64,000 nucleotides of DNA from the NCBI RefSeq assembly GCF_014638745.1, contig NZ_BMFO01000001.1:1-64000 (forward strand), in the 5' to 3' direction. Position numbers and translations under genes: made by a program. The notes under the pieces are model-generated. The model searched no databases and was not told where the DNA came from. It was given only the letters and a program-made list of their open reading frames with translations. Positions within the stretch are counted from its first letter, which is position 1, and each line of letters begins with the position of its first letter. The stretch comes from Arenimonas maotaiensis. GTDB taxonomy: Bacteria; Pseudomonadota; Gammaproteobacteria; Xanthomonadales; Xanthomonadaceae. Of the stretch, positions 30,714-63,070 are shown one piece after another.

Positions 30714-31051
30714 GTGATCGGCATCTCAAACCCCGAATGCAAAAGCTCCCGAACATGTTCATTTCATTTCCGTCAACACAGCCCTGTATCCAATGAATGC
30801 GTGCCCTTGCATATAGCGGTAGCCATCTAGTTCAGGCATCTGGCTTTTGATCTGCATCAAAGCACTATTTACTGAAAGCCTTGATACTTTCGGGCATGAG
30901 GAAATCATAGCTGCCGCTATCGAACTCTGGCTGGTCAGGGGATGGCTTTTCGAATCCCCATCCTGACCGGAAATATCGCTTTGACCTGATCGAAGTCAAC
31001 GAAATCGGCGTGTTGTTCTAAAACGCTACAGAAAACGGGAGTTTGATTCAC
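30714..31051. other. Regulatory gap before the decarboxylase operon
   Basis: This 338-base gap contains no gene that I can support. It holds a perfect FNR box at 30847-30860 and a weaker match (TTGACCTGATCGAA) at 30981-30994, which lies closer to the start codon and would also be in promoter distance. Confidence 0.55.
30847..30860. promoter_or_regulatory. FNR box before the tyrosine-decarboxylase-like operon
   Basis: TTGATCTGCATCAA is the perfect E. coli-type FNR consensus. A TGATAC sequence about 30 bases downstream of its centre could be the -10 box. Confidence 0.8.
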
Positions 31052-33004
31052 ATGAGTAATGCCAGTATTTATCCCTACTTTCTGGGGCCTTATGGCGAGA
31101 ACAATGACTTGCTGGAAAAGCTGGTCGTGGAGTTCTTGCGCGACCACGTGTATTGGCGACGCAACCTCTATCCCGATGACCCGCCTGCAATTCCGACCCG
31201 AGCCTCGGATACCCCGGAATTCATGGAATTTGAAGCTCGTCTGCGTCGGGAATTGCACTCGCTATCGGCGGCATTGAAACGTTCGGTACCGTTCCATAGT
31301 CCGCGTTATCTGGGCCATATGGTGTCGGATGTCTTGCTGCCTGGGCTTGCTGCCCAGTTTTTGACCTTGCCGTATAACCCAAACAACGTCAGTGTGGATG
31401 CGGCACCGGTAACCGTCGATCTGGAAATAAAAACGGGTTTGCAACTGGCACGCATGCTCGGATTTTCGACCGATACGACGAAAGCCGATTGTTCTTTTGG
31501 CCATTTGACTTCGGGCGGCACGGTCGCCAATTATCAGGCGCTACGTCTGGCGATGGCGCTGAAAGCCTTTCCGGTCGCCTTGCTTGCTGCCAATCCGCCG
31601 GGTTTATCTTTGCCGGAAGATGATTGGCAGGCCTACAACCTCACGCCCGATCAATCGATTGCGCTGTTAAGCAACTGGCATCATTGGCTTGATCAACAAT
31701 CGATCGCAGATAAACAGCATTACATGAGACGCCTGCACGTGGAGCGGATTGAAACGCGTGGACTCTGTGACTTTTTTACAACGCATCTCGACTTGGTGGT
31801 TCCCAGTGTGTTGGCGCCGATAACCGCGCATTACTCCTGGAGCAAGGGCGTCAAATTGCTCGGCCTGGGACGTCAGCAATTGATGCCGGTGCCAGTGCGC
31901 GGCATGCGCATGAACTGCGATGCACTGCATGACATTATTGAGAACCATCTGAAACAACAAAAGCCGATACTGATGGCTGTCGGTGTGCTGGGTAGCACGG
32001 AATTCGGCACCATCGATCCGCTACATGAGCTGCTTCGTGAAAGAGATTGGGCAGCCAAGCATGGCATAGGCTTCTCGGTGCATGTGGATGCGGCGTGGGG
32101 TGGCTATCTGGCGACGTTATTTCGCCAGGAAGATGGCGGTATTCGGCCGCGCGAAGAAGTTTGTTCCGAATTTAGCCGCTTCCCGGACACCGAAGTCTAT
32201 TCGGCATTCGAGGCGCTCGGTCATGTCGATTCGGTGACGGTAGATCCGCACAAGTTGGGTTATATCCCCTACGGAGCAGGTGCCTTTATTTGTCGTGATC
32301 AGCGTGGCATGGAATTGTTGGCAGAAGAGGCGGACTACGTTTTTTCGGTCAATAAAAATGATGACTATTTCAAACGTTACCGGCAACTTGGACGTTACAT
32401 TCCAGAAGGGTCGAAATCCGGTGCCATCGCCGCGGCTGTTTACGTGACGCATAGCGTGATGCCGCTGGACCACAGGCATTTCGGTAAATTGCCGCGGGAA
32501 AGTATTTTAGCCGCCGAAGTTTTCCAGCAGGCAATCCAGGATTTCTCCCGGCGCGTTTCAAATCGCCTGATCTGTTACGTGCCGTTTGAGCCCGATAGTA
32601 ATTTAGTCTGTCTGGCACTTAATCCCGTCGGCAATCGCGATATCGCCACGATGAATAATTTTGTTCGCGGCCTGCATGATATTTTGCGTTGCGACCCCGG
32701 GGTGCCATTGCAAAGACGCGAATATTTCGGATCGATTACCACGCTCAGGCCCAATACGATGGGGCCCGAGGACAGCCGGCGAATTTATGACGCATTGGGC
32801 CTGGATTTGATCGCCGATGAGCGAGGAAACATGCCGGAAGATAGTCTGGTCATTTTGCGTCACACGCTGATGAACCCTTTCATGATCGACAGCGAAAACG
32901 ATGTCAGTTATATCGAAGGCTATTTTGATTTCCTGGAGAGAAATATCGATGCATTGCTAGATACAAATAACTCCCGTCCAATGACTGTTCTAGTTACGCC
33001 ATGA
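31052..33004 (+). CDS. PLP-dependent decarboxylase, tyrosine decarboxylase-like
   Basis: A 650-residue group II amino acid decarboxylase. HVDAAWGGY contains the PLP-contacting Asp, and VDPHKLGYIPYGAGAF contains the Schiff-base Lys at about 401. The N-terminus (GENNDLLEKLVVEFL...W) and the EGSKSGA segment resemble the long (about 620 aa) tyrosine decarboxylases of Enterococcus and Lactobacillus. Substrate by homology is tyrosine or another aromatic amino acid; glutamate cannot be excluded. The start is ATG 31052 with GGGAG in front. ATGA overlap with the next gene shows an operon. Tyramine formation uses up protons, but why it is coupled with quinone genes is open. Confidence 0.75.
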   Translation: MSNASIYPYFLGPYGENNDLLEKLVVEFLRDHVYWRRNLYPDDPPAIPTRASDTPEFMEFEARLRRELHSLSAALKRSVPFHSPRYLGHMVSDVLLPGLAAQFLTLPYNPNNVSVDAAPVTVDLEIKTGLQLARMLGFSTDTTKADCSFGHLTSGGTVANYQALRLAMALKAFPVALLAANPPGLSLPEDDWQAYNLTPDQSIALLSNWHHWLDQQSIADKQHYMRRLHVERIETRGLCDFFTTHLDLVVPSVLAPITAHYSWSKGVKLLGLGRQQLMPVPVRGMRMNCDALHDIIENHLKQQKPILMAVGVLGSTEFGTIDPLHELLRERDWAAKHGIGFSVHVDAAWGGYLATLFRQEDGGIRPREEVCSEFSRFPDTEVYSAFEALGHVDSVTVDPHKLGYIPYGAGAFICRDQRGMELLAEEADYVFSVNKNDDYFKRYRQLGRYIPEGSKSGAIAAAVYVTHSVMPLDHRHFGKLPRESILAAEVFQQAIQDFSRRVSNRLICYVPFEPDSNLVCLALNPVGNRDIATMNNFVRGLHDILRCDPGVPLQRREYFGSITTLRPNTMGPEDSRRIYDALGLDLIADERGNMPEDSLVILRHTLMNPFMIDSENDVSYIEGYFDFLERNIDALLDTNNSRPMTVLVTP

Positions 33005-34098
33005 ATCCATTCATGGCCACTTGTTTTGAGAATAGGGCATGGGTGCACAGCGCCATTGCCTGCCTCGAGCAAGAAGCCGCACGCTCGGCCGATACGCATT
33101 TATTGAAACTGGATATGGCCGGTTTTCCCGGCATCCATTTTTATTTCAAGGACGAGTCATCACATCCTACAGGTAGTCTTAAACATCGTTTGGCGCGTTC
33201 GCTTTTTCTGTACGCACTTTGCAATGGTCGTTTGCAGGAAGGTCAATCAGTCATTGATGCGTCTTCCGGAAGCACCGCGATTTCGGAAGCCTGGTTCGCA
33301 CGTCTGCTAGGTCTGCGTTTTACCGCCGTCATGCCCGAGTGCACGACACCGCGAAAAATCAGTGTGTTGCAATCACTCGGGGCAGAGTGTGATTTGGTGC
33401 CGGCCGGTGTCGACACCAGCGAGCATGCGCGAGAACGTGCAAGAGCAGAAGGCGTCTGTTATCTCGATCAATTCGGTCTTGCCGAACGTGCGACCGATTG
33501 GCGCGGTAATAATAATATTGCCGAGTCGATTCTCACGCAGATGCAAAAAGAATCGAACCCGATACCGACCTGGATAGTCTGCGGAGCCGGTACTGGCGGC
33601 ACATCGGCCACAATCGGGCGTTACCTTCGCTATCGGCGATTGCCGACGCTCTTATGCGTGGCGGAACCGATTGGCGGTGCGTTTGCACAGGCTTGGCAGA
33701 CCAGAGCCATCACCGAAACGAAGCCTTGCAATACGATTATTGAAGGCATTGGCCGCAGCCATATCGAGCCGGGTTTCATGTTCGACGTGGTGGATAAAAT
33801 CATCGAAGTCGCCGACGTCGATTCCTGCGCTGCCGCCTGGTTGCTGGAAGATATTCTTGGCCGATGTTACGGTGGTTCCTCGGGCACCAATCTGATTGCC
33901 TGTTTGCAATTGGCTACCGCGATGCGAGATCGCGGTGAAACCGGCAGCATCGTGAGTTTGCTGTGTGATCGGGGAGAGCGTTACGCCGAGACGCTATTTG
34001 AGAGAACGTGGTTGGCACAACACGATATCGTGCTTGACGACGCCCTTGGCGAGCTGCGCCAATATCTCGGACAAGACGATGGCATGATTAAACGCTGA
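33001..34098 (+). CDS. PLP-dependent cysteine synthase-family enzyme, Cds1-like
   Basis: A 365-residue fold type II PLP enzyme. The Lys that binds PLP is K61 in HPTGSLKHRLARS, the phosphate and substrate loop is SSGSTA, and GAGTGGTSATIGRY is the glycine loop. The sequence KDESSHPTGSLKHRLARSLF resembles Cds1, the L-cysteine desulfhydrase described in mycobacteria, more than CysK/CysM. It may release sulfide from cysteine, for instance for Fe-S proteins such as UbiU, UbiV, NadA and NarH. It overlaps the decarboxylase stop (ATGA) and is translationally coupled with it. Confidence 0.7.
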   Translation: MNPFMATCFENRAWVHSAIACLEQEAARSADTHLLKLDMAGFPGIHFYFKDESSHPTGSLKHRLARSLFLYALCNGRLQEGQSVIDASSGSTAISEAWFARLLGLRFTAVMPECTTPRKISVLQSLGAECDLVPAGVDTSEHARERARAEGVCYLDQFGLAERATDWRGNNNIAESILTQMQKESNPIPTWIVCGAGTGGTSATIGRYLRYRRLPTLLCVAEPIGGAFAQAWQTRAITETKPCNTIIEGIGRSHIEPGFMFDVVDKIIEVADVDSCAAAWLLEDILGRCYGGSSGTNLIACLQLATAMRDRGETGSIVSLLCDRGERYAETLFERTWLAQHDIVLDDALGELRQYLGQDDGMIKR

Positions 34099-34150
34099 GC
34101 GGGAATTCGAAATCCATTTTTAACCACAGCACTTTTAAAATTGATGACTT

Positions 34151-34561
34151 ATGGAAATGAAAACATTTAACGATCTTCTGGCGGCGGCGATTCAACAATC
34201 CGAACCGCAACGGCTTCTGTTTGTGTTTGCAAAAGCCGAATTGCCACGCGATGCAACTGACGAGGAAAAGCAACGTTTCGAGCGCGGTGAAGGCGGCGCG
34301 CTCGCACCGGTGGTTTGCGTGGACAAACGTCCCGAGGAGATCGAAAGTTTTACCGCATTGATAGAAGAATCGGCACAGACCGGACAAAGCTGGGACATTC
34401 TTTTCGTGTCGGCAATGAATGGTCGCGGAGGCCACGCTCCCAACGCCGATGAAGCGGTGCAGCCTTTGAAAATGATGGTCGAAACCATCAAGAGCGGCCG
34501 CATTGCACAATTCCTGACGGTTGATCGTGACGGTCAACTTGTCCAGTTAACACGAGAGTAG
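34151..34561 (+). CDS. Conserved small protein of unknown function
   Basis: A 136-residue soluble protein: LLFVFAKAELP, an acidic linker, APVVCVDKRPEEI, WDILFVSAMNGRGG and a C-terminal FLTVDRDG strand. Similar proteins in pseudomonads are, as I recall, often labelled ribonucleotide reductase subunit alpha, but no catalytic residue of that enzyme is present and the length is far too short, so that name should not be used. It lies 52 bases behind the Cds1-like gene and 7 bases before the prephenate dehydrogenase fusion, inside the FNR-driven unit. Confidence 0.6.
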   Translation: MEMKTFNDLLAAAIQQSEPQRLLFVFAKAELPRDATDEEKQRFERGEGGALAPVVCVDKRPEEIESFTALIEESAQTGQSWDILFVSAMNGRGGHAPNADEAVQPLKMMVETIKSGRIAQFLTVDRDGQLVQLTRE

Positions 34562-34568
34562 CTCACGA

Positions 34569-35618
34569 ATGTTGCAGGACATCCAGATTGGATTTCTTGG
34601 CTACGGCCGTTTTGGCGCTGCATTCGCTGCACTGATGGACGAACGCGGCTATCCGTGGCGCGCCTGGGATCCTGTCGCTGCAGTACCGGAAGCACACGCC
34701 ACTGCCGACGCGGATGCTCTGGTGACCAGCTCCAATTTAATTGTCATCGCGGTACCAGTAAGTTCCTTTGAAACCGTGTTGCGTGATTTGCGTCCCAAGT
34801 TAAGCGCCAGGCATCGTGTGATGGATGTTTGCAGTGTTAAACAAGGCCCGTGCAAATTGATGGATGAAATATTGGGCACAGACATCGGGCATGTTGGTTG
34901 CCATCCACTATTCGGCCCGCTCAGCATCGCGCGGGCAGAACCATTGCGAACGGTGTTGTGTCCCAGTGAACTGCATCCTGAAACGGCACGACTCGTCAGG
35001 GTCTTGTTCGAATCGCTGGGTAGCGAGGTGCGAGAGCAGGAGCCGAGCAGTCATGACCGATACATGGCATTGACGCATGCGATGGCTTTTTTTATTGCGC
35101 GTGGATTGCTTGATTTAGGGGTAGATAAGGATTTGCATTGGGCACCACCAAGCTTCGCGGCGTTGGCTGCGTCGATCGCAGCCGTTCGCTCCGATGCGGG
35201 GCACTTATTCAATGCCATCCAATTGGAAAATCCTTATGCTGCAGCCACAAGGCAGGGATTGATTGAGTCGCTGACTTTGATCGATCAGCGCTTGTCGAAA
35301 GCCCCCGACCATGGCGCGTCAATGACCGAAATGAATATTCCCGATTTCGGCCAACCGACACCGGCACTGCGAGAAGTCCGTGAGCACATCGACGAGTTGG
35401 ATCACGAATTGATTGCGTTATTGCAACGACGCAGCGAGCTTAGTGCCCGTGCAGGTCATGCCAAGCGTGCTGTCGGCTCCCCTGTTCTTGATCCGGGTCG
35501 TGAAGTCGAATTAATGCGGCAACGCGGTGATTGGGCAGAGCAGAGTGGCTTGCCTTCGGATGTCGTACAAGCCATTTTTCGCCAGATAATGGCGATGAGC
35601 CGACGCGTTCAAGTCTAA
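34569..35618 (+). CDS. Prephenate dehydrogenase - chorismate mutase fusion (reversed TyrA order)
   Basis: 349 residues. The N-terminal NAD domain has GFLGYGRFG (8-16); the dehydrogenase shows DVCSVKQGP, the catalytic His in CHPLFGP (H112) and an Arg (about R228) that matches the substrate Arg. The C-terminal part (about 265-349) is an AroQ-type chorismate mutase with R271, R287/288, K299, R311-E312 and Q339 in place. E. coli TyrA has the opposite order, mutase first. It makes prephenate from chorismate and can oxidise it to 4-hydroxyphenylpyruvate. It directly precedes ubiU, about 90 bases away, which suggests a link of prephenate to anaerobic quinone synthesis. Confidence 0.82.
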   Translation: MLQDIQIGFLGYGRFGAAFAALMDERGYPWRAWDPVAAVPEAHATADADALVTSSNLIVIAVPVSSFETVLRDLRPKLSARHRVMDVCSVKQGPCKLMDEILGTDIGHVGCHPLFGPLSIARAEPLRTVLCPSELHPETARLVRVLFESLGSEVREQEPSSHDRYMALTHAMAFFIARGLLDLGVDKDLHWAPPSFAALAASIAAVRSDAGHLFNAIQLENPYAAATRQGLIESLTLIDQRLSKAPDHGASMTEMNIPDFGQPTPALREVREHIDELDHELIALLQRRSELSARAGHAKRAVGSPVLDPGREVELMRQRGDWAEQSGLPSDVVQAIFRQIMAMSRRVQV

Positions 35619-35639: not shown

Positions 35640-35653
35640 TTGACTTAGATCAG
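35640..35653. promoter_or_regulatory. Imperfect FNR box before ubiUV
   Basis: TTGACTTAGATCAG differs from the palindrome in its last base. It lies 55 bases before the ubiU ATG. About 30 bases behind it stands GAATTAT, a weak -10 box. Confidence 0.6.
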
Positions 35654-35707: not shown

Positions 35708-36706
35708 ATGCAATTGGTATGTCCTGCCGGTAACTTGCCGGCACTGCAGGCAGCGGTCGATGCCGGTGCAAATGCGGTGTATGTCGGGTTTCGTGATCAG
35801 ACCAATGCACGTGCTTTTCCAGGCCTGAATTTCAGCGATGCAGATTTGCGCCAGGGCATCGACTTCGCCCATAAAAATAATTGCAAAGTTTACGTGGCAT
35901 TGAATACCTATCCCGATAGTGCACGCATCGGCGAATGGCAGCAGGCAGTGGATCGGGCTGCCTCTTTTGGTGTAGATGCCATTATCGCAGCCGAAATGTC
36001 GGTACTCGATTATGCGGCACGCATGCATCCGGAAATGCCACGTCATCTTTCGGTACAAGGTTCGGCAACAACGGCGCCGGCATTGCGTTATGCCTATGAG
36101 CGCTTTGGCATTAGTCGCGCCGTTCTGCCACGAGTATTGTCCGTGCAGCAAGTCGAGCGCCTATGCCAGACATCACCAGTGCCGCTGGAAGTATTCGCAT
36201 TTGGCAGCCTGTGCATCATGGTGGAAGGACGCTGTCAGCTTTCAAGTTATGTCACTGGTGCCTCGCCGAATCGACATGGTGTCTGTTCACCGGCTCGATT
36301 TGTTCGTTGGGACGAATACGATGACGGTTCTCGCAGCGTGCGTTTGAATGATGTTTTGATCGATCGTTTCAAGAAAGACGAACCGGCAGGTTACCCCACT
36401 GTCTGCAAAGGACGCTTCGCGGTCGGCGATGAAATATTTCATGCGATGGAAGAACCCACCAGCCTGAATACGCTCGAACTATTACCCAGACTCAAACAAG
36501 CCGGCGTCGTCGCGCTAAAAATCGAAGGTCGTCAGCGCGGCGTTGCGTATGTCAGCTCGGTGACCCGCATCTGGCGAGCCGCCATTGATAAACTGGAAGC
36601 AAATCCTGGCAGGTGGGCGGTAGAGCCGAATTGGCAATCTGTGCTATCGGCGCATGCCGAAGGCCACCAAACTACCTTGGGCCCCTATCACAGGGCATGG
36701 CACTAA
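35708..36706 (+). CDS. ubiU: O2-independent ubiquinone hydroxylase subunit UbiU (U32 family)
   Basis: A 332-residue U32 'peptidase' family protein that is not a peptidase. Cysteines 169, 176, 193 and 233 match the four [4Fe-4S] ligands of E. coli UbiU; the N-terminus MQLVCPAGNLPALQAAVDAG is the family start. With UbiV it hydroxylates the quinone ring in the absence of O2. The ATG at 35708 with GGAG in front is preferred over the longer frame, which overlaps the mutase gene. ubiV follows after 26 bases. Confidence 0.93.
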   Translation: MQLVCPAGNLPALQAAVDAGANAVYVGFRDQTNARAFPGLNFSDADLRQGIDFAHKNNCKVYVALNTYPDSARIGEWQQAVDRAASFGVDAIIAAEMSVLDYAARMHPEMPRHLSVQGSATTAPALRYAYERFGISRAVLPRVLSVQQVERLCQTSPVPLEVFAFGSLCIMVEGRCQLSSYVTGASPNRHGVCSPARFVRWDEYDDGSRSVRLNDVLIDRFKKDEPAGYPTVCKGRFAVGDEIFHAMEEPTSLNTLELLPRLKQAGVVALKIEGRQRGVAYVSSVTRIWRAAIDKLEANPGRWAVEPNWQSVLSAHAEGHQTTLGPYHRAWH

Positions 36707-36732: not shown

Positions 36733-37617
36733 ATGAAACTGAGTTTAGGTCCATTGCAGTATTTTTGGTCGCGGGAACGTACGCTGGCTTTTTATCGGGA
36801 AGCCGTCCAGTGGCCGGTGGATATTATTTATCTCGGCGAAACCGTTTGCAGCAAACGACGGGAACTGACCACGCGTGACTGGATTGCACTGGCGGAAGAA
36901 TTGGCAGCTCATGGCAAGCAAGTCGTATTGTCTTCGCTGGCATTGATCGAAGCGGAATCGGAACTCAGTGTTCTGCATCGCTTAATCGACCATGATCTTT
37001 TCTGGATCGAAGCCAACGACATGTCGGCGGTACAGCTATGTCGTGAAAAGATAGTGCCTTTTGTTGCCGGGCCTTCGTTGAATGTCTATAACCACCGGGC
37101 ACTGGCAATGCTGGTGGAAGACGGGCTAAGGCGTTGGGTTCCGGGTGTTGAACAAGGCCGCGAATTGATCAAGGAACTTCGCGAGGCAACGGACGCCGAT
37201 GGACAAGCCATGCCCGAGCTGGAAGTCATCGCTTGGGGGCGGTTGCCGTTGTCCTATTCGGCTCGCTGCTTTACGGCGCGCTCACTCGATATTGCAAAAG
37301 ACCAGTGTCAGTTTCGCTGCATTGATTATCCCGATGGTTTGCGACTCACGACACGCGAGGATCAGGCCTTTCTCAGGATTAACGGCATCCAGATACAGGG
37401 AGAAGAAATCACCGATCTCGGGCCCGAGTTGCCGGAATTACGAACGCTAGGCGTCGATATTCTTCGCCTTTATCCGCAAGTCAACGGAATGAAGGAAGTC
37501 GTCACACATTTCGATCTGGCCAGACATTCTCCAACCGCACCACCGCGAATCGGCATGCGAAACGGTTATTGGTATGGCGAGCCGGGCATGCGCATGTCCG
37601 CAAGGCAAAACGACTGA
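36733..37617 (+). CDS. ubiV: O2-independent ubiquinone hydroxylase subunit UbiV (U32 family)
   Basis: A 294-residue U32 protein. MKLSLGPLQYFW, GETVCSKRR (C39), YSARCFTARS (C179) and KDQCQFRC (C192, C196) give the four cluster cysteines of UbiV at nearly the same numbers as in E. coli. It forms the UbiUV complex needed for ubiquinone synthesis under nitrate respiration. ATG 36733 is chosen by this alignment; two in-frame ATGs upstream (36697, 36709) would add about 10 residues. It ends convergent to nadB. Confidence 0.93.
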   Translation: MKLSLGPLQYFWSRERTLAFYREAVQWPVDIIYLGETVCSKRRELTTRDWIALAEELAAHGKQVVLSSLALIEAESELSVLHRLIDHDLFWIEANDMSAVQLCREKIVPFVAGPSLNVYNHRALAMLVEDGLRRWVPGVEQGRELIKELREATDADGQAMPELEVIAWGRLPLSYSARCFTARSLDIAKDQCQFRCIDYPDGLRLTTREDQAFLRINGIQIQGEEITDLGPELPELRTLGVDILRLYPQVNGMKEVVTHFDLARHSPTAPPRIGMRNGYWYGEPGMRMSARQND

Positions 37618-40197: not shown

Positions 40198-41091
40198 CTA
40201 ATTCGATGCCGTTCTGTTTTGATATGCCGTGCGTGCAGCCAGAGCCAGATCGGTGCCACGTTGCATGGCTATGCGAAGCCCCAACGGAATTTCCTGCCAA
40301 GGCAATTGGTCCAGTAAATTGCGGGCCGTAAGACCCAGTTCAGTATCGCCGGTAAGAACCAGTCGACGTTGGAAAAACAAGGTGTCTGCATCTTCCCGGC
40401 GACTGGCCAGCAACATTAAATCGGTTGCAGTACCGCGGACGGTGGCCTCTGCAATTTCGTCCCGCGCACAGACACGCATTCGGCCTTCGCGCAGTACCAC
40501 TACCCAGCGAAGATCCAGATCGCTCACTTCGATGCCGAGTCTTCGGTCGGACAGCATTTCGAGTGCGCCTTTTTCTATCGGTGCGCTCAATACGCGCTGC
40601 ATTGCCGCTTCGAACAATTTCACTTGCCAGACAATCGGGATCCGTCGCAAAAAAGGCGACAAGCGGGAAGGAGGTGGCAGCAGGCGAAGCCAGCGGGAAT
40701 AAGAAGAAAATCGGGTTTGGCTATTCATGGTGTTTGCGAGCATGCCTGTAATAGGAGGGAGAGCGCCCTGATCTGTATCAACTACAACAAACTCGTCGGA
40801 CACCTGCGACAAGCCTTGCTGCCGGCAGGCATCCTGGATGAGTGCAGACATCAGGCGATCACTGCTCGCTGGCGGAAGACCAAAGCGATTGCCGAGTCGC
40901 CGTGCGCGCCGGAGCACTTCGCGTTCGCGGTCCGGATCGCGGATCGGCACGCCCTTTTCCTGCTTTATTCGTGCCGCCAGTGAAACCAATCGTCGTCGGG
41001 CAACAATCAGTGTCAACAACGCATCGTCGACGCCATCAATCATTCGACGTACGCCGATCAGCGCGCCATGCGATGTTTCAGTTTTTGTCAT
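40198..41091 (-). CDS. ubiT: Chorismate mutase - UbiT (SCP2) fusion protein
   Basis: A 297-residue protein with two clear parts. Residues about 10-93 are an AroQ chorismate mutase: R15, R32-34, K43, the DPDRERE block (52-58) and Q91/92 correspond to the E. coli active-site residues, so it should be active. After a linker (about 95-140), residues 145-290 are an SCP2 lipid-binding domain like UbiT, with FLRRIPIVWQVKLFEAAMQ and the beta-strand region GALEMLSDRRLGIEVSD. UbiT binds lipid intermediates for UbiUV. E. coli UbiT is only about 174 aa and has no mutase. The fusion would bring prephenate to the quinone complex. ATG 41091 overlaps the DGC gene; a GTG at 41103 is possible. Confidence 0.8.
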   Translation of the reverse strand: MTKTETSHGALIGVRRMIDGVDDALLTLIVARRRLVSLAARIKQEKGVPIRDPDREREVLRRARRLGNRFGLPPASSDRLMSALIQDACRQQGLSQVSDEFVVVDTDQGALPPITGMLANTMNSQTRFSSYSRWLRLLPPPSRLSPFLRRIPIVWQVKLFEAAMQRVLSAPIEKGALEMLSDRRLGIEVSDLDLRWVVVLREGRMRVCARDEIAEATVRGTATDLMLLASRREDADTLFFQRRLVLTGDTELGLTARNLLDQLPWQEIPLGLRIAMQRGTDLALAARTAYQNRTASN

Positions 41092-41482
41092 GATGCTTTT
41101 CACTGTGTAATGCCGAATCCGTCAAACGTTCGGCGATCGGAACAATATGGTGGTCGTAAATGGCGTGAGCCTGGGCCGGATCGAAATCGACATGCTTGCG
41201 TTTTTTTACTTCGAATTCGGAAAGCACGATGTGACGATCGGGTGTCACACCAACTTGCGAAAGGCAGGCAGAGGCGCAGGCAAGAATGCAGCCATCCAGT
41301 GCAATGATGGGACGATGGCTGCGCGCCGTGTTGACCAGTCCGGTGACGCCGCCACCGACACCGGCGATGCAGGACATTTCCGCTTTGCCTTGTCGGTCCA
41401 GCCACAGCGCCATCTGGTTTGCCATTTGAGCCGCGCTTGAGCAACCGGAACAGGCGTACACCAGTGGAAGCTTCTTTTTCAT
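41078..41482 (-). CDS. DGC-domain putative zinc-binding protein
   Basis: A 134-residue cysteine-rich protein: YACSGCSSAAQMANQMA (C11, C14), a MSCIAGVGGG loop, and LDGCILACASACLSQ with the DGC signature. The family is called putative zinc-binding; metal binding is likely from the cysteines, the role is unknown. ATG 41482 with GGGAG 8 bases upstream is the clear start. It overlaps the genes before and after by a few bases, so it is part of one transcript from the FNR box at 43105. Confidence 0.7.
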   Translation of the reverse strand: MKKKLPLVYACSGCSSAAQMANQMALWLDRQGKAEMSCIAGVGGGVTGLVNTARSHRPIIALDGCILACASACLSQVGVTPDRHIVLSEFEVKKRKHVDFDPAQAHAIYDHHIVPIAERLTDSALHSEKHHDKN

Positions 41483-43104: not shown

Positions 43105-43118
43105 TTGACAAGGATCAA
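43105..43118. promoter_or_regulatory. FNR box of the DUF2249-ubiT-nadAB operon
   Basis: TTGACAAGGATCAA, a full FNR-type match. On the minus strand TGATACT lies about 30 bases behind its centre as -10 box (near 43,078-43,084), which puts the site at about -41.5 with a leader of about 22 bases. Confidence 0.8.
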
Positions 43119-43144: not shown

Positions 43145-43158
43145 TTGATCCAAGTCAA
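43145..43158. promoter_or_regulatory. FNR box of the ubiD-methyltransferase unit
   Basis: TTGATCCAAGTCAA, the second full FNR match in this divergent gap, 26 bases from the first. By position it serves ubiD on the plus strand. The -10 box there is not obvious. Confidence 0.75.
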
Positions 43159-43284: not shown

Positions 43285-44772
43285 ATGAGTTTCCATGACC
43301 TGCGTTCATTTCTTTCCCGGCTGGAAACAAGCGGCCAGTTAAAACACGTCGACGAGCCTGTCAGTTCCCATCTGGAATCCACGGCATTGAGTCTGTTGTC
43401 GCTTCGTGCCGGTGGTCCGGCCTTGCTGATGGCAGCGAATACCGAATCACCACAACGCTATCTCGGCAATCTATTCGGACATCGAAACCGTATCGAAGCG
43501 GTGTTGTCAGGCAGGCCGTTGTCGTCATTGCGCGAACTCGGCGAATTGCTGGCGGCATTGAAGGAACCACGTTGGCCGGGTAGTTTGCGCGAAGCCTTGC
43601 ATAGCTGGCCGGAACTCGCACAGCTCGCCCATGTCGCACCTCGTACCGTGCGCGATGCAGACTTCAATGACGAAGTGATTGAAGCGAATGATATCGATTT
43701 GTCACGATTGCCGATTCAGCATTGTTGGCCTGAAGATGCGGCCAAATTGATTACGCTGGGCTTGGTGATTACCCGCGGCACCCGAAAGCCCAGACAGAAC
43801 ATTGCGGTGTACCGACAGCAAGTCATAGGCCGCAACAAAGTCATCATGCGCTGGTTATCGCATCGTGGCGGTGCACTGGATTTTGCCGATTGGCAGGCAA
43901 CGCATCCGGATAAACCCTTTCCGATCGTCGTCGCGATTGGAGCCGATCCTGCAACAACGTTGGCCGCGGTGGCGCCGGTTCCGGATACTTTGTCGGAATT
44001 TGAATTCGCCGGATTATTGCGCGGTGAACGCAGTCGCGTTTGGCGAAGTGCATTGACCGGGCTCGATGCGCCGTCGGGGGCGGAAATTTTGCTGGAAGGA
44101 TTTATTTATCCCGGTGACACGGCGCTGGAAGGTCCTTTCGGCGATCACACCGGTTATTACAACGCGCAAGCAATGTTTCCAGTGATGACCATCGAGCGCA
44201 TGCGTTTGCGTCGTGATGCCATTTATCAAGGCAGTTACATGGGCCGTGCGCCGCATGACGAACCTTCGGTGCTCGCACTCGCACTGAATGAATTATTCGT
44301 TCCGATTCTGCGAAAGGTGTTTCCCGAGATTGTCGATTTTTTTCTGCCGCCGGAAGCATGCTCTTACCGAATCGCGGTAGTAAGCATTCGCAAGCAATAC
44401 GCCGGTCATGCGCGTCGGGTGATGATGGGAATCTGGTCGTATTTGCGCCAGTTCACCTATACCAAATTCATCATCATCGTCGATGAGGACATTGATGCAC
44501 GCGACTGGTCACAAGTGCTGTGGGCTTTATCCACTCGCGTCGATCCGGCACGCGATAGCATGCTGGTCGAAAATACGCCGATCGATTATCTGGATTTCGC
44601 CAGTCCCGAGCCGGGGCTCGGCTCAAAATTGGGTTTGGATGCGACCCGGAAATGGCCTGGCGAAACCACGCGCGAATGGGGCAGGGTGATTGTGTCCGAC
44701 CCGGCGGTGGAAAAGCGTATGCAGTCGCTATGGCAAACGCTTCGAAATAATCATGAGGAAACGGATCGTTAA
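43285..44772 (+). CDS. ubiD: UbiD-type 4-hydroxy-3-polyprenylbenzoate decarboxylase
   Basis: A 495-residue prFMN-dependent decarboxylase that follows E. coli UbiD closely over the whole length: IAVYRQQVIGRNKVIMRWLSHRGG in pieces, GADPATTLAAVAPVPDTLSE, EGPFGDHTGYYN with the Glu/Asp/His of the active site, and ENTPIDYLDFASP near the end. It removes the carboxyl group of the ring in ubiquinone synthesis and does not need O2. UbiX, which makes prFMN, is not in the window. Lower GC and the FNR box suggest an anaerobic second copy beside a core ubiD elsewhere. Confidence 0.9.
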   Translation: MSFHDLRSFLSRLETSGQLKHVDEPVSSHLESTALSLLSLRAGGPALLMAANTESPQRYLGNLFGHRNRIEAVLSGRPLSSLRELGELLAALKEPRWPGSLREALHSWPELAQLAHVAPRTVRDADFNDEVIEANDIDLSRLPIQHCWPEDAAKLITLGLVITRGTRKPRQNIAVYRQQVIGRNKVIMRWLSHRGGALDFADWQATHPDKPFPIVVAIGADPATTLAAVAPVPDTLSEFEFAGLLRGERSRVWRSALTGLDAPSGAEILLEGFIYPGDTALEGPFGDHTGYYNAQAMFPVMTIERMRLRRDAIYQGSYMGRAPHDEPSVLALALNELFVPILRKVFPEIVDFFLPPEACSYRIAVVSIRKQYAGHARRVMMGIWSYLRQFTYTKFIIIVDEDIDARDWSQVLWALSTRVDPARDSMLVENTPIDYLDFASPEPGLGSKLGLDATRKWPGETTREWGRVIVSDPAVEKRMQSLWQTLRNNHEETDR

Positions 44773-63056: not shown

Positions 63057-63070
63057 TTGATCCAAATCAA
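63057..63070. promoter_or_regulatory. FNR box of the moa operon
   Basis: TTGATCCAAATCAA, a perfect FNR palindrome 185 bases before moaA. For a class II promoter transcription would begin near 63,022. Confidence 0.78.

Follow-up and report, generated by a model that had tools for sequence, protein, structure and literature searches.

A chorismate mutase-UbiT fusion in Lysobacterales points to a dedicated prephenate supply for O2-independent ubiquinone synthesis

Bacteria of the order Lysobacterales, to which Arenimonas belongs, encode a protein in which an AroQ-type chorismate mutase (CM) is joined to UbiT. This CM-UbiT fusion is real, widespread and selected in the order, and comparative genomics makes it likely that it acts as a bifunctional protein of O2-independent ubiquinone synthesis, whose active CM would be dedicated to prephenate for UbiU and UbiV (UbiUV). 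Such a dedicated supply is well supported because the two parts share a reading frame, the catalytic residues are kept, dN/dS ratios and linkage to ubiUV agree with it, some hosts apparently lack PheA and TyrA, and further CM genes adjoin ubiT elsewhere. According to a passage of PMC11574389, which cites Ferizhendi et al. (PNAS 2024, e2321242121), the hydroxyl group in anaerobic ubiquinone synthesis comes from prephenate, a possibility that an excerpt of a 2023 mBio paper (PMC10470549) had raised and that the initial annotation also mentioned. The view of that annotation that the mutase would make prephenate for UbiUV is strengthened, as a dedicated supply, by frame, residues, dN/dS and ubiUV linkage. 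Two points in it need correction: the identity of the donor, as given in that passage of PMC11574389, was already published and does not depend on the fusion, and UbiT is probably also produced without the mutase.

The fusion gene lies in the window, by which we mean the whole 64-kb stretch of DNA analyzed, and has the following parts.

40198..41091, minus strand: CM-UbiT fusion protein, 297 aa from the ATG at 41091 or 301 aa from a GTG at 41103
40816..41052, minus strand: AroQ chorismate mutase (CM) domain, aa 14-92 (Pfam match, catalytic residues, Foldseek match to 1ecm)
40294..40650, minus strand: UbiT/SCP2 domain, aa 148-266 (NF047962, Foldseek match to UbiJ-SCP2 6h6p)

Both domains exceed their Pfam cut-offs in the same frame of the minus-strand open reading frame 40198-41103: CM_2 (PF01817) scores 64.2 bits in the first half against a gathering cut-off of 27, and SCP2 scores 62 bits in the second half against 21.3. 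The second half also reaches 130.2 bits with the NCBIfam UbiT equivalog NF047962 (cut-off 46.9), so that the Pfam and NCBIfam matches confirm the earlier reading of a CM and an SCP2/UbiT domain in a single 297-residue protein. Isochorismate pyruvate lyase (PRK07075) was rejected as an identity of the CM half, with 29.9 bits for NF005475 against a cut-off of 126, and UbiJ was rejected for the second half on the UbiT equivalog score and the ubiUV linkage. Elsewhere in the same genome, a second SCP2 gene reaches no more than 22.2 bits against the UbiT profile; we infer from the adjoining ABC1 (UbiB-type) gene that it is ubiJ. Domain modelling, as had been proposed, gave an AlphaFold2 model of the fusion (36 input sequences; mean pLDDT 81.7, pTM 0.55) with the AroQ three-helix fold (helices 3-46, 53-69 and 74-91), residues 96-126 at low confidence, and a UbiT domain at 131-296; the two halves are joined by a flexible linker. 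Foldseek matches the modelled CM half to 1ecm, the E. coli chorismate mutase, with an rmsd of 0.9 and a target TM of 0.84-0.88; for the UbiT half it finds UbiJ-SCP2 6h6p (target TM 0.74, rmsd 2.9).

We examined 106 loci (24 + 80 + 2), nearly all of them from Lysobacterales. The 80 loci were chosen for likeness: they came from a scan of named genomes with an alignment of 20 fusions, from which the best 80 of 289 relatives, ranked by similarity, were taken, and this set is therefore biased to fusions. The search across genomes for CM-SCP2 fusions, suggested at the outset, found CM sharing a frame with UbiT in 102 of the 106 loci, from isolates as well as metagenome-assembled genomes (MAGs), with 80 of these loci being the best of 289 relatives. 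The 102 loci represent 88 distinct sequences, since a number of the relatives' genomes recur among the named ones; several genomes of the window's genus, for instance, have fusion DNA identical to that of Arenimonas records. The identical sequences L012 and L089 contain two N. All 85 distinct linkers are open in the fusion frame, compared with 24 of 85 in each other frame. Among 61 relatives, UbiT exceeds the cut-off in 24 and the remaining 37 have no such UbiT. A CM directly precedes UbiT in 21 of the 24 UbiT genomes, in 20 of them within one frame, and three (G060, G053 and G044, all inside the order) have no CM before UbiT. In genome G003 (L019), CM and UbiT occupy separate frames that overlap; this is the sole such case among the 106 loci and reflects either an assembly frameshift or a real split. 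In Dyella jiangningensis (CP007444.1), two loci about 5 Mb apart (L054 and L055) do not differ in fusion DNA or in gene order, either through duplication or as an assembly artefact.

The named set, being the best 80 of 289, comprises Lysobacterales genera, unassigned Gammaproteobacteria, Proteobacteria and Pseudomonadota, and one Erythrobacter MAG. Erythrobacter is an alphaproteobacterium, and the CM-UbiT contig labelled Erythrobacter sp. (L109) may result from misbinning or transfer. In a class sample of 274 genomes, the fusion was present only in three members of the window's own family (G000, G036 and G224) among the matches listed. A phylum sample, in which 59 ubiT neighbourhoods picked for family spread were scanned, added two more fusions, both again from the window's family, and no CM near ubiT in the remaining 57 neighbourhoods (among the matches listed). 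Thus, with the by-name exception of the Erythrobacter contig, no fusion outside Lysobacterales was found in the 274-genome class sample or the 57 phylum-sample neighbourhoods, among the matches listed. Domain databases may well already include the CM-SCP2 architecture.

The CM half retains most of its active site. We take the catalytic residues of the E. coli enzyme (EcCM) to be R11, R28, K39, D48, R51, E52, S84 and Q88. The window copy has R15, R32, K43, D52, R55, E56 and Q92 as the equivalents of R11, R28, K39, D48, R51, E52 and Q88, and A88 at the position of S84; the complete set of active-site residues initially reported thus stands for seven of the EcCM equivalents and fails at S84. Among 85 distinct CM halves (a set including the best 80 of 289 relatives), no exception occurs at the equivalents of R11, R28, K39, R51 and E52, while 84 copies retain Q88 and 81 retain D48; the S84 position holds alanine in 75, glycine in nine and serine in one. 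Conservation across these 85 copies is much higher at the eight catalytic positions than at the remaining 84 (p 5e-6). Over 57 close and overlapping pairs, the UbiT part has a median dN/dS of 0.12 (n = 56), the CM half one of 0.19 (n = 55) and the linker one of 0.57 (n = 54); judged from these ratios, the CM half is under purifying selection.

The genomic context connects the fusion with the hydroxylase genes and with sites resembling those of FNR.

35708..36706, plus strand: ubiU, NF047963 at 528 bits (cut-off 440)
36733..37617, plus strand: ubiV, NF047965 at 355 bits (cut-off 275)
43285..44772, plus strand: UbiD-family decarboxylase, TIGR00148 at 463 bits (cut-off 244.85) and PRK10922 at 678 bits, under its cut-off of 788
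43105..43118, minus strand: FNR-like box (9 of 10), upstream of the cluster DUF2249, NnrS-like, DGC, CM-UbiT, nadA, nadB
43145..43158, minus strand: second FNR-like box (9 of 10), in the same intergenic region, before DUF2249
30847..30860, plus strand: perfect FNR box, ahead of the plus-strand cluster whose last genes are PDH-CM, ubiU and ubiV
35640..35653, plus strand: FNR-like box (8 of 10) between PDH-CM and ubiU, in a region whose genes also contain 8 of 10 boxes
63057-63070, plus strand: second perfect FNR box of the window, TTGATCCAAATCAA

The genes ubiU and ubiV, placed by the initial annotation in the same island, pass their equivalog cut-offs and lie 2.6-4.5 kb from CM-UbiT on the opposite strand. 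Co-occurrence, which it had advised checking, holds beyond the window: both genes are found within 10 kb of the fusion in 46 of the 51 named loci whose flanks each extend for 9 kb or more, and in the available stretch of 13 of the 29 named loci with shorter flanks (best 80 of 289 in both cases). On the minus strand, the gene order is DUF2249, an NnrS-like membrane protein, a DGC-domain protein, CM-UbiT, nadA and nadB; NnrS-like is our reading of a protein with no Pfam or NCBIfam match, and nadB scores just below its cut-offs. Nine sites with at most one mismatch from TTGAT-N4-ATCAA occur in the 64-kb window, versus 1.75 expected, and none of 100 shuffles reaches nine. Two of the nine are the 9 of 10 boxes upstream of the minus-strand cluster, in agreement with the FNR-driven operon predicted earlier, and one is inside the fusion linker.

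The own genome of the window (2.16 Mb, completeness 100) has three CM_2 domains, in CM-UbiT, in a PheA-type protein on contig 4, and in a prephenate-dehydrogenase-like protein, PDH-CM, which is encoded directly before ubiU.

34569..35618, plus strand: prephenate-dehydrogenase-like protein with a C-terminal CM (PDH-CM), PF02153 at 51.7 bits and PF01817 at 79.9 bits
35376-35612, plus strand: CM part of PDH-CM, with all eight EcCM residues kept

All eight EcCM residues are retained in the eight CMs of PDH-CM type that were found in seven genomes. A T-protein identity was rejected for PDH-CM: NF008400 gives 114.2 bits against a cut-off of 273, and the CM is C-terminal, unlike the N-terminal CM of the T-protein. 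The order PDH-CM, ubiU recurs in G005 (L223), and in G023 (L224) PDH-CM lies about 5 kb before ubiU. Between the perfect FNR box at 30847 and PDH-CM, three closely packed genes (31043-34561, plus strand) encode a tyrosine-decarboxylase-like protein (324 bits, below its cut-off of 905), a Cds1-like PLP protein (443 bits, below 600) and an unknown 136-aa protein. The genome also has a second TyrA, with an ACT domain, at C1:145177, which scores only 32.8 bits with the TyrA Pfam profile. In nine loci (L045, L047, L054, L055, L070, L078, L087, L088 and L107), a TyrA-like gene, cut by the stretch end in L045 and L088, lies in the island near ubiD and matches the dehydrogenase part of PDH-CM only, not its C-terminal CM.

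Three genomes that carry the fusion, G012, G021 and G029 (completeness 99, 100 and 99), have no other CM_2 match, and neither a prephenate dehydratase nor an AroH-type CM was found in these drafts. PDH_N matches in G012, G029 and G240 were rejected as TyrA, with NAD_binding_2 and NAD_binding_11, of the 3-hydroxyisobutyrate/6-phosphogluconate dehydrogenase families, scoring far above PDH_N; the G029 match stood at the cut-off in the profile scan, and the G021 match resembles these three by eye. It should be noted that the absences of PheA, TyrA and CM rest on draft genomes, and that a divergent TyrA could be missed because a single Pfam profile was used, with which even the second TyrA of the window's genome reaches just 32.8 bits. 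The other 18 of the 21 genomes with a CM before UbiT have at least one further CM_2, and PheA was confirmed in the three of them that were tested (G000, G004 and G015). Retention of CM-UbiT where PheA and TyrA appear to be lost is the pattern that a dedicated prephenate supply would predict. Two further genomes, G024 (completeness 85) and G028, have no dehydratase, TyrA or any CM and also lack a UbiT above the cut-off, which fits this pattern weakly, because 37 of the 61 genomes have no UbiT above the cut-off.

Outside the order, we scanned the 72 gammaproteobacterial ubiT neighbourhoods, among the class-sample matches listed, whose UbiT part scored at least about 47 bits. Each covers between 3 and 16.5 kb, contig ends truncate some of them, and the lowest-scoring ones may hold something other than UbiT. 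A standalone CM lies directly beside ubiT in four of the 72 (G099, G207, G293 and G240, from four families), and a scan with own-built profiles found no CM elsewhere in these stretches (both among the matches listed). The CMs of G099, G207 and G293 were already visible in the class-sample list and that of G240 was unexpected; G293 and G240 entered the comparison via their CM. All four pass the Pfam CM cut-off and keep R11, R28, K39, R51 and E52, and their activity is less sure because the Q88 equivalent is absent in all and D48 in all except G240. No prephenate dehydratase was found in the four genomes, a family present in 14 of 14 control genomes, and neither TyrA nor another CM was found in G293 and G240; G207 keeps a CM-prephenate dehydrogenase, and G099 keeps a prephenate dehydrogenase and a second CM frame. 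A single origin of all CM-ubiT links is not favored by a CM tree of 49 rows, in which the 23 CM-UbiT rows form one branch (94/85) with the standalone CMs outside it, but this tree has only 85 columns, 18 open forks and an unsettled bootstrap. Overall, a CM is nearby in only four of 129 ubiT neighbourhoods outside the order (among the matches listed), and most UbiUV users therefore seem to manage with a housekeeping CM.

The linker of the fusion itself carries a candidate promoter.

40768..40781, minus strand: FNR-type box TTGATACAGATCAG, within the linker coding sequence, encoding D-T-D-Q
40739..40744, minus strand: -10-like hexamer CATGCT of the presumed embedded promoter (position taken from the segment profile)
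40726..40728, minus strand: internal in-frame ATG (Met122), 46 nt beyond the box centre; translation from here would give a free UbiT of 176 aa

In 55 of the 102 loci, including the window, the linker contains an FNR-type box that matches 8 or more of the 10 bases, compared with none of the 102 for control segments of equal length in the UbiT body; by distinct linkers, the count is 46 of 85 (both sets include the best 80 of 289). Among 45 distinct segments, an in-frame ATG follows the box centre at 46 nt in 32, at 43 nt in 12 and at neither distance in one. A -10-like NATGAT is located 30-35 nt after the box centre, and A31 and T35 are found in all 32 segments with the ATG at 46. Class II FNR promoters have the box about 41.5-42.5 nt upstream of the transcript start, together with a -10 element. 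The layout in the linker would correspond to such a promoter with an almost leaderless message, and the box and start codon at fixed spacing suggest that free UbiT, without the mutase, is probably also made in box-bearing loci, the window included. A linker box is missing from 47 loci. In 18 of these, a box matching 8 or more of 10 bases precedes the CM by no more than 350 nt, and the other 29 carry no box at either site; since such an upstream box also accompanies the linker box in 10 of 55 loci, chance may account for some of the 18. Four distinct loci without a linker box (L112, L113, L114 and L115) have a linker devoid of ATG, GTG and TTG and an 8 of 10 box upstream of CM, so that they seem to make UbiT solely as the fusion.

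Given the linker promoter, a large share of UbiT may function apart from any CM, which counts against a dedicated supply. On this ground, one may suppose that the CM is active and that the fusion serves co-regulation only, with the mutase feeding a general anoxic prephenate pool (for Phe, Tyr and the PDH-like protein) and the linker-made free UbiT doing the quinone work. The linker boxes in 55 of 102 loci and the start codon that follows them in frame after 46 or 43 nt, seen in 44 of the 45 distinct segments, would suit this explanation, as would the TyrA-like genes found in the island of eight of the 51 fully flanked loci (best 80 of 289). We nevertheless consider it unlikely, given that the fusion is kept in three genomes where PheA and TyrA were not found and that UbiT seemingly exists only as the fusion in the four loci lacking linker start codons.

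A second alternative directs the prephenate mainly to tRNA and rRNA hydroxylation (TrhP, RlhA) or to CmoA, making the UbiT linkage incidental. An excerpt of PMC6599085 confirms the earlier statement that TrhP needs prephenate in E. coli, where CmoA also uses or needs it; however, the fusion to UbiT and the CM genes adjoining ubiT point to ubiquinone. A weaker argument against it is that the two CM_2-less genomes of the 61, G024 and G028, have no UbiT above the cut-off, as likewise 35 of the other 59. We regard this alternative as very improbable. AroQ mutases are dimers, and the CM half could in principle be a dead fold serving UbiT as a dimerization module, yet such a scaffold would not need conserved catalytic residues, which occupy six of the ten best-conserved positions in that half; the chance of this is slighter still. 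An assembly or sequencing error joining two genes, named at the outset as what would undo the finding and suggested by the overlapping frames of G003, is refuted by the joined frame common to 102 of 106 loci from isolates and MAGs (80 of them the best of 289).

Compared with E. coli UbiT (YhbT; PMC6747719 and PMC10470549, in excerpt), the fusion is alike in its SCP2 domain, which passes the UbiT equivalog cut-off, in adjacency to ubiUV and in FNR-type sites, and the predicted internal product of 176 aa is close to the 174 aa given for the E. coli protein in that part of PMC6747719. It differs in its N-terminal chorismate mutase and in the promoter motif embedded in its coding sequence. The same 2019 paper (PMC6747719, in excerpt) describes a UbiT-UbiU fusion in Zymomonas mobilis, which likewise joins UbiT to a pathway partner in one polypeptide; there the partner is a hydroxylase subunit, whereas here it is an enzyme that should make the co-substrate. 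The AroQ domain of PheA and TyrA (1ecm) has the same fold and, except for S84, the same catalytic residues, but its fusion partner is a dehydratase or dehydrogenase from amino-acid synthesis, not a quinone lipid carrier. TrhP and UbiUV, as presented in passages of PMC6599085 and PMC11574389, share the same chemistry, with prephenate needed and no O2; in those systems prephenate comes from a free-standing housekeeping CM (PheA and TyrA in the case of E. coli TrhP), whereas here a CM is physically tied to the pathway. The CM-UbiT fusion looks undescribed in the literature searched, where we found no mention of it, although the PNAS 2024 paper may mention it; the main text of a 2024 ISME paper (PMC11707229) lacks the terms 'chorismate mutase', 'fusion' and 'fused'.

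In the dedicated supply that we favor, the AroQ half, a dimer by homology, would convert chorismate to prephenate, the UbiT half would bind the hydrophobic ring intermediates and carry them to UbiU-UbiV, and these would use prephenate as the hydroxyl donor. The fusion would thereby place the supply of the donor inside the pathway, independent of the amino-acid enzymes PheA and TyrA. At low O2, an FNR-type regulator would raise CM-UbiT from promoters upstream of the gene cluster and, in roughly every second locus, the window among them, would also raise free UbiT from the linker promoter. A further-reaching model, to which we assign roughly even chances, presents CM-UbiT as the delivery unit of a prephenate-generating quinone metabolon, in which lipid and oxygen donor would come from one polypeptide by physical channelling, the gene-within-gene FNR promoter would set the ratio of mutase-bearing to free UbiT, and lineages losing PheA and TyrA would keep or acquire a ubiT-linked mutase.

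The CM-UbiT fusion provides genomic evidence, independent of the work in E. coli, for a prephenate supply within O2-independent ubiquinone synthesis, and suggests that donor and lipid may come from one protein. With a mutase separable from lipid binding, it is a ready test system for oxygen acquisition by U32 hydroxylases. The hosts seemingly without PheA and TyrA are natural cases where the amino-acid roles of prephenate have fallen away, and if the metabolon model is true, evolution itself would show the need for prephenate apart from amino acids.
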